A stretch of DNA of 64,000 nt from Nostoc sp. ATCC 53789 (GTDB lineage Bacteria; Cyanobacteriota; Cyanobacteriia; Cyanobacteriales; Nostocaceae). Location: positions 1,860,001 through 1,924,000 of the forward strand of contig NZ_CP046703.1 in the NCBI RefSeq assembly GCF_009873495.1, in the 5' to 3' direction. Position 1 is the stretch's first letter. The number at the start of each line of letters is the position of its first letter. Below, piece by piece: positions 14,228-34,945 of this stretch. The notes beneath the pieces are model-generated. The model did no database searches. It saw only the letters and a program-made list of their open reading frames with translations, and was not told the origin of the DNA. Made by a program: the position numbers and the translations under genes.

Positions 14228-14866
14228 TTATTGAATGCTATTGGCAAAGTCGTATTTGCCCCCACGTTCAAGAGCGCGTTTGTAAGCAGGCCGCGCATGG
14301 ATGCGCTCGATAAATTGCTGAATTTTCGGTCGGCTTGAGATGAGTTCGGCTTCCATAGCGACTATTTCCAAAGGAAAGCTCATTTGGATATCGGCGGCGG
14401 TGAATTCTTCGCCTACAAACCATGTATTTTTACGAAGTTCACCTTCTATATAGTCAAAGTGAAGCTTAATCTGGGGTGCGATAAATCCTTCGTTTACGCT
14501 GTCTCCTACACCAAAACGGTTAAAGACGAGATTCATTACCAGAGGTGGCATTGCAGAGCCTTCGGCATAATGCAGCCAATAAGTGTAGCGCAGACGTTCT
14601 GGTGTACCAGGTGGCGGGATTAGCTGACCATTACCGTAGCGTTCGACGATGTATTCAATGATAGCGCCTGACTCAGCAACAGTATTTTCTGCATCTGTGA
14701 TTACTGGTGACTTGCCGAGGGGATGGACTTCACGCAGGGATGCCGGTGCCAGCATCGTCTTCTGGTCGCGTTCGTAGAACTTAATTTCATAATCGATCCC
14801 TAATTCTTCAAGCAGCCATAGTACGCGCTGCGATCGCGAGTTGTTAAGATGATGGACAACGATCAT
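14228..14866 (-). CDS. glutathione S-transferase family protein
   Basis: The 212-residue product has a thioredoxin-like N-terminal half (VHHLNNSRSQRVLWLLEELG, then LREVHPLGKSPVITD and the gamma-glutamyl-binding ESGAIIEYI) and an all-helical C-terminal half with the N-capping motif region FTAADIQMSFPL. The S-R-S-Q segment suits the class in which Ser/Tyr activates glutathione. It resembles the yeast Gtt1/YfcG-related group in layout. Function likely conjugation or peroxide reduction in the cytoplasm. Monocistronic. Confidence 0.93.
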   Translation of the reverse strand: MIVVHHLNNSRSQRVLWLLEELGIDYEIKFYERDQKTMLAPASLREVHPLGKSPVITDAENTVAESGAIIEYIVERYGNGQLIPPPGTPERLRYTYWLHYAEGSAMPPLVMNLVFNRFGVGDSVNEGFIAPQIKLHFDYIEGELRKNTWFVGEEFTAADIQMSFPLEIVAMEAELISSRPKIQQFIERIHARPAYKRALERGGKYDFANSIQ

Positions 14867-15011
14867 AATAGCTACTTTTTTACAATGGAGTTATTACTGA
14901 CTTTTCATCATCTGAAACTACCATCAGCTGACTAATTATTCATCTATCTAATGGTTTGTTTTGGGTAGTGCTAAATCAAGCACTTATTTCTGGATTTGGA
15001 AGGGTATCTAT

Positions 15012-33098: not shown

Positions 33099-33167
33099 GT
33101 TTGTGCCTTATACCAATTTTTTATGAAGCTGCATAGAATTCGATCCCCCCTAGCCCCCCTTATTAAG

Positions 33168-34591
33168 CTACGGTGTACACACAAGTTTGCCCAGAGCGAG
33201 TTTCCACCCAAAAAAGGTGGATTCAAATTGCTCAAGACCGCGAACCAAAGTAGTAATACCGGGAGGTTTTTGAGACTTGTAACCAGACCAACCACCAAGC
33301 CGAGCAATAATCCAAGTAGCCCAAGGAAGAGAGGAAGGAAGATAGGGATTTTGTTGCAATTGAGTTTTCCCCTCTAAAGTTGGTGAAATGCTAGACAAGC
33401 AATGCTGTTGCTCGTGTGAAAAAGCAACAGTAGCAGGTAAATTAGGGTTATCCCGTCCCTGAATCAGTTGTAAAATTCGCACGGCGACTGACAAAGCTAA
33501 TACAGTCAGTCGTTGAATGGCAGCAATCGATTCTAATTGGGTAGCTTCGAGATTTAAACCAGCAGTTTTGAGGGTGGCAAAAAGTTGTTCAATTCGCCAT
33601 CGCCAGGTGTACCATCGAATCACCTGTAAAGCTTGTTCTAAACAAACAACTTGGTGGGTGGTGAGCAATCGCCAATGAATCGGTGCTTGACCTGGTGGTG
33701 GGTTGACCTCCACGGCTTCCACGGCATAAAGTGTCACACTCGGAGGATAATCTTGTCCATTCAATTTATCTGGACGTTGAATTTTCACCATTGCACGGCG
33801 AACAATTAATAATGCCTCTCTTGCGGTTCTACTAGTGCGTGCATCTGCTGGGACATCTACTGTGTAAGTCCCCTCGCTCGGCTGTTGGTTTAAGTATGTA
33901 TAAAATGATGAGGTCTTTCCCACCAGGCGACGGTCAATGCGCGCTCTGACCAATACATGATTGTCTTGATTTGCGACTGTCACAAATTCCTCATACATAT
34001 CACTTTCTCGGTCGCCGATATGGGTAATCATTTTGGCTTCACCAACATTGATGCACTGTTGAGTTTCATCAGCTGAACGCAGCCATTTGTATGATTCTTT
34101 CTCCTCTATTGGCAATTGGCTATAGTTTCGTTCATGTTTATCTTGATGGTTGATATCTCTAGTCCACAGTTTTACTGTACTTATCCCCAAGGGAAATCCA
34201 TTTGCTGCATCTAATACTAGTGTGGGATGAATATAAAATCCTATATCCCTATTGTTTCCTACTACACCTAGACCCAAAGCTTCCAACCTGCCTACATGAG
34301 ACTGCAAGTTAATTTCGCTGGTATCACTGATAGCTAATATATGCTTTCCTTCTACATGAGATACGCAGTGATCTGATAGGCTTCGCACTAATTCCCCTAC
34401 TGTCACACTCTTATTCTCCAAAAACCGATAGTATCCTATTTGTTCGGCTCTATTTTTACTTATTTGTCGAATGCTGACTGATTGATGTTTTCCCAAAGCT
34501 TCGTACAATGCTGCCCCCTTTTTATCAGTCTTGGGTCTCCAAATGCTTTTCCCTCTACTGCTTGCGCGTGTATTCTGATTGGATTTTCCAT
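33168..34591 (-). CDS. IS4-family DDE transposase, with a frame break near the N-terminus
   Basis: The main frame encodes DDE motifs: Asp in ILAISDTSEINL, Asp in ITHIGDRESDMYEEF, and the Y-2-R-3-E-6-K signature in YTWRWRIEQLFATLK. A frame from TTG at 34610 runs through to the stop, but its first ~30 residues do not look like a transposase. The ATG at 34591 has GGGGAG upstream and reads MENPIRIHAQAVEGKAFGD, PRLIKRG, the expected IS4 start, and would run out at TAA 34460-34462. The two frames join at an A5G5 tract (34514-34523) by a -1 shift. Either programmed frameshifting or a one-base slip in a homopolymer explains this; transposase activity depends on which. Confidence 0.85.
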
Positions 34592-34654
34592 CGCCTTTTA
34601 CTCCCCACAACTCCTTCCCTTATTACTTTACTTGGACTTGTGTGTACACCGTAG
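33168..34654 (-). mobile_element. IS4-family insertion sequence, about 1.49 kb
   Basis: Perfect 19-bp terminal inverted repeats CTACGGTGTACACACAAGT (33168-33186) and its complement (34636-34654), flanked by a 9-bp direct repeat CTTATTAAG (33159-33167 and 34655-34663), read as the target duplication. The duplication is intact and the repeats identical, which indicates a fairly recent insertion. It contains one transposase gene on the minus strand whose stop codon lies in the left repeat. Confidence 0.92.
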
Positions 34655-34945
34655 CTTATTAAGGGGGGAACCAGAAAAACATCTATCAAAGTCCCCCTTT
34701 TTAAGGGGGATTTAGGGGGATCAAGATATGTGCAACTTCACATTAAATTGGTATTAGTTCCGTGAATTTTTGAAAAATTGGGATGCTCCCAACGTAATCA
34801 CTGCTTGCTTATTTCAACAGGATAATTTTTCTAAAGCTCTTGTCAGTAGTGTTTGAGATGTCCTTAACCTGAGTCAGATACCAATGGCAAAACTATAAAG
34901 CTATAATGCACTTTTAATCAAATGTTTGCCTGAACTTTAACCGTT

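Follow-up and report, generated by a model that had tools for sequence, protein, structure and literature searches.

Few cut-and-paste transposition systems have been studied as thoroughly as IS50/Tn5. Two-frame members of IS231 are on record from older work. In the available text of De Palmenaer et al. (2008, PMC2266710), a transposase gene without a frameshift is a hallmark of the IS4 family, which bears out the view of an earlier sequence-only reading of this locus that a frameshift would be unusual for that family. The frameshift-using families named in the available part of the review by Atkins et al. (PMC5009743) are IS1, IS3, IS5, and IS630. Runs of the XmYn type are a named slip-site class (PMC6211511, available text), and a Roseiflexus IS630-family element relies on transcriptional slippage at a T5C5 site (Penno et al. 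2015, cited through PMC5009743), where slippage escaped detection unless context features were present, in that case a neighbouring hairpin (Atkins et al. 2016, PMC5009743). DDE_Tnp_1 genes with a −1 shift make up some of the GeneTack clusters (PMC3711429); these clusters, from the portion of that source available, could hold IS50-type split genes that went unrecognised. Our literature search, incomplete for subscription journals, retrieved no frameshift report for IS50-type or cyanobacterial IS4 elements. What appears new here is a probable programmed frame transition in an IS50-type clade of a family defined partly by lacking one.

The element lies on the minus strand of a 64,000-nucleotide stretch of the Nostoc sp. 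ATCC 53789 genome, hereafter the window (Table 1). The sequence-only reading had described an ATG preceded by GGGGAG, an early stop in that frame, a catalytic frame continuing one base back from an A5G5 run, intact 19-bp ends, and a 9-bp target duplication; each of these features was recovered at its coordinates, with both repeats perfect and CTTATTAAG on both sides. The upstream frame runs for 43 codons and encodes MENPIRIHAQAVEGKAFGDPRLIKRG. The catalytic frame is offset by −1 relative to it and ends in a TAG at 33168, which on the minus strand is also the outermost triplet of the terminal inverted repeat. There is a single occurrence of the string AAAAGGGGGC in the window; chance predicts 0.21, and 19 of 100 shuffles had at least 1 match, so that by itself the string is unremarkable. 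What is striking is its conservation at one codon position among relatives. This bacterial Tn5-type transposase gene seems to be reliant on a reading slip rather than damaged, because distant relatives keep the same A/G run.

Table 1. Coordinates of the insertion sequence and its parts, given as positions of the window.
Feature	Position	Strand	Basis or remark
IS50/Tn5-like insertion sequence, IS4 family, 1487 bp	33168..34654	-	19-bp ends, target duplication, and genome copies
Terminal inverted repeat CTACGGTGTACACACAAGT	33168..33186	+	Fits the IS50 end consensus in the available text of PMC2266710
Second terminal inverted repeat, start-codon side	34636..34654	-	19-bp perfect pair
9-bp target duplication CTTATTAAG	33159..33167	.	
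9-bp target duplication CTTATTAAG	34655..34663	.	
Upstream frame, ATG start (34591): 26 transposase residues, then a 17-codon out-of-frame tail and stop	34460..34591	-	
A5G5 tract, meeting point of the two frames; 0-frame AAA AGG GGG	34514..34523	-	
Catalytic frame, Tn5-like DDE transposase: 449 residues from the junction, then TAG	33168..34517	-	Y303-R306-E310-K317

The assignment to the IS4 family made in the sequence-only reading was upheld by the NCBIfam IS4 model (E = 1.3e-112) and by the Y-(2)-R-(3)-E-(6)-K signature, whose residues Y303, R306, E310, and K317 are the same in all 9 sequences aligned. A profile built on the catalytic frame matched Tn5 transposase structures over positions 21–438 (E ~1e-38) and the Tn5 inhibitor structure (E = 1.5e-37). 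The terminal repeat CTACGGTGTACACACAAGT agrees with the IS50 consensus CW------Y---CA-A--W- at every fixed position, the element length falls within the 1350–1550 bp of the IS50 subgroup, and the N-terminal Tnp_DNA_bind domain and Tn5-like catalytic core of that subgroup are both present. By itself, the catalytic frame lacks the first half of the Tn5-type DNA-binding domain, scoring 19.5 bits against the Pfam Tnp_DNA_bind cut-off of 24. When the two frames are joined, the score rises to 36.5 bits and the match covers profile positions 7–58 of 58 with an equal residue count; the corresponding joined and unjoined scores were 35.8 vs 15.7 and 38.3 vs 19.8 bits in two further elements, so that joining lifted the domain above the cut-off in all 3 elements tested. 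The family hallmark of an unbroken transposase gene is lacking in the five full copies of this genome and, among the relatives listed as matches, in 47 of the 51 clusters (see below); judged by descent, the element is best regarded as belonging to a variant clade of the IS4 family and not as a typical member.

Searching the Nostoc genome revealed four 1487-bp copies, three of them identical and the fourth differing by one substitution, which occupy different sites, as well as a fifth full-length copy representing a 71% identical relative. The same frame break is present in 5/5 full-length copies found, and the search turned up no full-length copy in frame (the genome is rated 99.99% complete). 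The copies have spread while bearing the break, with no unbroken full-length helper copy found. Target duplications of 9–11 bp flank three of the four near-identical copies (9 bp in the window, compared with 8–9 bp for the IS50 subgroup, and an apparent 11 and 10 bp at two others, where palindromic targets blur the count), and there is none at the fourth or at the distant copy (L002, L005). The insertion sites resemble CCCCTT...AAGGGG palindromes (33150–33167 and 34655–34670 in the window, and the flanks of L002–L005), which suggests a target preference that also blurs duplication length. The 19-bp end sequence, allowing up to 2 mismatches, occurs at 64 genome sites including the full copies' own ends, compared with 0 for the reversed control. 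On the main contig, 14 convergent end pairs lie 144–310 bp apart, some with a common end (for example, 14853–14996, 711099–711403, and 2108969–2109122), suggesting short non-autonomous derivatives of the element.

To follow the junction beyond this genome, 217 genomes of the same family and 388 of the same order were searched, together with genome contigs and plasmids. Matches were kept if they began no later than query residue 12, and identical junction windows were merged, leaving among the matches listed a sample of at least 70 junction-bearing loci in 51 clusters at 90% identity. In 47 of these 51 clusters, the frames change over at one common position, with the same offset, at an A3-7G5-7 tract; the sharing of the break by related copies, on which the sequence-only reading made a regulated element conditional, is thus seen in other genomes as well as in this one. 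Tract lengths among the listed matches were A5G5 in 18 clusters, A4G5 in 14, A6G5 in 9, and A5G6 in 3, with single clusters carrying A5G7, A7G5, A3G6, A4G4, and A3G5 and two being tractless; the common offset extends over the A5G5, A4G5, A6G5, A5G6, A5G7, A7G5, and A3G6 types. The phenylalanine codon of an FGD motif is separated from the tract end by 30 nt, or by 32 nt in one G7 locus (L063), and an ATG or GTG stands 16 codons ahead of the motif in most of the 45 relatives listed. The sequence-only reading had proposed that close relatives with A4G5- or A5G4-type tracts and a single open frame would refute a regulated break. Such A4G5 clusters exist and are also out of frame; their distance to the run end is unchanged, and therefore the base adjoining the run was substituted, not lost. 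Single-frame relatives were encountered in two cases: L120 from Methylosinus, which has no tract and is in frame through the join, and L149 from Sinorhizobium, which is ~99% identical to L125 and in frame with A5G10.

The same offset extends to elements of Sinorhizobium, Ochrobactrum, Bradyrhizobium, and Rhizobium at ~35–38% protein identity, and several rhizobial members read AAA GGG GGG at the junction; a Skermanella copy (L148) has A6G5, the same offset, and FND replacing FGD. Outside the 70 loci, 36 more that had been set aside as duplicates were checked: 4 are without the N-terminal region, and in all 32 that have its motif the tract is 30 nt away and the junction is identical to a counted one. 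A phylum-wide sample, in which 6 of 386 genomes matched, brought no genome beyond those of the earlier searches. The junction count leaves out L103 (spurious), L120, L123, and L124 (single frame), and a second alignment of L044; L129 and L130 have the tract and offset and missed a search pattern, and L148–L152 were added after the clusters had been counted and are outside that count. Among the exceptions, L078 has an interrupted G-run with the offset kept and is cut by a contig end, L083 (A4G4) and the tractless L044 are partial copies, and L127 (A3G5) has a different offset and is annotated as two genes. Taken together, the comparisons support a break that is old, selectively kept, and present in recently moved copies.

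Selection at the junction was examined at the codon level in 34 of the 51 clusters (at least 400 codons, no more than 3 stops), 28 cyanobacterial and 6 alphaproteobacterial, after setting aside L044, L078, L083, and L127, which have no normal tract, and L098 and L102, which have downstream indels. Among 169 conserved columns of degenerate amino acids in these near-intact elements, the only codons with zero entropy were the three at the junction, the median share of the top codon over the 169 columns being 0.48; the clusters are related by descent and therefore statistically non-independent. The junction lysine is AAA in 34/34 elements (57% of Lys codons elsewhere in these genes), the arginine, where present, is AGG in 30/30 (7% of Arg codons elsewhere), the remaining 4 elements having GGG, and the glycine is GGG in 34/34 (18% of Gly codons elsewhere). 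Part of this invariance is due to overlapping coding at the join; by our reasoning, at least 2 of the 9 junction positions are free of the overlap constraint under each slip-site model. The upstream frame evolves as coding sequence, with differences at codon positions 1, 2, and 3 of 0.33, 0.27, and 0.58 in 38 cyanobacterial clusters. As a separate observation, the codon preceding AAA has A as its third base in 32 of the 48 tract-bearing clusters, C in 10, and T in 6, and never G, although GTG accounts for 40% of the Val codons elsewhere in these genes.

When 36 frameshift transposases were placed in a tree with 16 single-frame ones, they fell into a clade with SH-aLRT support of 99, which includes one single-frame row, L120. 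The tree comes from a short search with SH-aLRT as its only support measure, and L149 was removed beforehand; it implies two label changes, and L120 and L150 sit on long branches. One origin of the split frame and one loss would be the simplest account.

We consider it very probable that the two frames are connected by a programmed transition of some kind. The sequence-only reading left a choice between programmed frameshifting and a recent slip; the first gains from the break being shared by the 5 genome copies and 47 of the 51 clusters, whereas the second falls away as a general explanation. Homopolymers are the usual site of recent frameshift mutations and assembly errors, yet the same break recurs in 47 of the 51 clusters among the matches listed, across many records and down to ~35–38% protein identity; on this comparative evidence, mutation or assembly error has a negligible probability for the run and can be taken as excluded as a general explanation. 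A DNA-level on/off switch, whereby G-run length varies and rare in-frame copies supply the transposase, would find its case in Sinorhizobium, where five records hold copies at least 99% identical and the four copies inspected carry G6, G6, G7, and G10 (99.3–100% identity). The G-run may be unstable in DNA, but a single in-frame copy would not make switching general. Against such a switch stand the identical out-of-frame offset in 47 of the 51 clusters among the matches listed and in the five full Nostoc copies, as well as the G5 run itself, which is short for phase variation; the G7 copy (L152) also has neighbouring A- and T-runs that are one longer, which looks like sequencing error, and we regard the switch as very improbable. 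The unlike G-runs of the near-identical Sinorhizobium meliloti copies L149 and L152 versus L125 and L151 could be due to mutation or sequencing error. Only slightly less remote, and in our view still distinctly unlikely, is internal initiation, in which AGGGGG would serve as the ribosome binding site for a start in the catalytic frame, yielding a separate downstream protein, possibly an inhibitor like Tn5 Inh. Public annotation starts the coding sequence 7–8 codons past the match start in L114 (ISSysp3), L115, L119, L125, and L151; catalytic codon 8 is ATG in 26/45 and TTG in 5/45 of the relatives listed; and initiation was suspected for G_GG.G by Sharma et al. (available text of PMC4066793). 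Codon 4, at the right distance, is nonetheless TTG in only 17/45, the first 30 catalytic codons contain no ATG in 12/45 and no ATG, GTG, or TTG in 2/45, and neither the selection on the upstream frame nor the split DNA-binding domain nor the strictness of AAA would be explained. A start at codon 4 or 8 was rejected as not conserved among the 45 relatives listed.

The remaining two readings both place the slip within AAA AGG GGG, and a ribosomal −1 slip and the insertion of one G by RNA polymerase yield the identical frame. Programmed −1 ribosomal frameshifting, on Lys AAA before a slow AGG (A_AA.A) or on GGG (G_GG.G), is a possibility of some weight that we nevertheless doubt. It is the known route of many IS1 and IS3 elements (available text of PMC5009743), A_AA.A is used in IS1/IS3 elements and is weakly shift-prone in Escherichia coli (PMC4066793, available text), AAA is preceded by an A in 32 of the 48 clusters with a tract, these genes seldom use AGG, and a stop codon directly follows GGG in 2/45. 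The heptamer A AAA AGG singled out in the sequence-only reading is present at the Nostoc tract, but as a conserved slip signal it was rejected, its first A missing in 16 of the 48 tract-bearing clusters, and it falls outside the X_XXZ_ZZN definition as worded in the available text of PMC4066793. With that base variable, rhizobial members reading AAA GGG GGG, and no downstream structure detected, a ribosomal −1 shift at the heptamer could not be established. No downstream stimulator structure was detected (mean z ~0 in 46–47 sequences), and the upstream Shine–Dalgarno-like GGAG was rejected as a conserved element, since it varies to GGCG, GGTG, or GGGG. Slipping on the Lys codon has, moreover, no need of the whole G-run, and the excess of G_GG.G in E. 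coli was ascribed to initiation and not to slipping (Sharma et al. 2014, PMC4066793, available text).

The conserved object at the junction is the A-run and the G-run together, and we favour transcriptional slippage at the A/G tract over a ribosomal −1 shift because both runs are kept whereas the first A of the heptamer is not; we rate its chance of being correct as even. Under transcriptional slippage, RNA polymerase would slip back one base on the A-then-G tract, adding one G in a minority of transcripts. The transcripts with one added G would give the full transposase, predicted at 474 residues with an N-terminal DNA-binding domain spanning the join, and the remaining transcripts would give only the 43-residue peptide. 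Full transposase would then be made only upon a frame change at the fixed A(3-7)G(5-7) tract, and, because only a minority of transcripts would encode the full protein, low transposase output would be built into the tract itself. A wobble rule was described for the Roseiflexus T5C5 site (available text of PMC5009743); carried over by analogy to an A-then-G tract, it would permit the gain of one G but no loss, matching the direction that the frame change calls for. An upstream hairpin was not evident in the 40 nt before the tract (mean z −0.72, 12/47 below −1.5), a control window of equal length giving a mean z of −0.58 with 9/46 below −1.5.

Compared with described systems, the element resembles IS50/Tn5 in the sequence of its catalytic part, YREK spacing, end consensus, length, the 9-bp duplication of this copy, and a Tnp_DNA_bind domain across the join; it differs in that IS50R (L134) is single-frame, whereas the DNA-binding domain of the Nostoc element is split and would need a frame change. 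An old clade within so well studied a system thus seems to break the no-frameshift rule of IS4. With IS3 and IS1, which use −1 frameshifting, it shares DNA-binding and catalytic parts in two frames, often at a −1 offset (PMC5009743, available text), but those elements have A_AAA_AAG-type motifs, often with stimulators, neither of which was found in the Nostoc element. The Roseiflexus element likewise needs a two-letter run for its transposase; it belongs to another family, and its U5C5 run drops one C and depends on a hairpin next to it (PMC5009743, available text), whereas the Nostoc A-then-G tract would gain a G and no hairpin was found.

ISSysp3, from plasmid pAQ7 of Picosynechococcus sp. 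PCC 7002, is 64% identical in the catalytic frame and has the same split at A6G5, but its record is annotated only from catalytic codon 8, the N-terminus missing. The annotation (L114, 622–1950 and 1923–2414) omits what would be residues 1–32, and the same record places a gene for a cytochrome b6-f iron-sulfur subunit over the 3' end of ISSysp3. Annotated transposases such as this one stand in records without their N-terminal DNA-binding part and may be misread as truncated. The strongly selected A-then-G tracts offer naturally occurring slip sites on which slippage by RNA polymerase could be tested against slippage by the ribosome. The editing motif of paramyxovirus P-gene mRNA is likewise an A-run followed by a G-run at which G is added, although there a viral RNA polymerase is at work and the two systems are unrelated by descent. 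G insertion in paramyxoviruses is also mentioned in the available text of PMC5009743. We tentatively suggest, with somewhat less than even confidence, that this Tn5-like clade of cyanobacteria and alphaproteobacteria expresses its transposase through a bacterial counterpart of paramyxovirus editing, in which the RNA polymerase of the host would insert a single G at the conserved A(n)G(n) tract, unaided by any helper structure.
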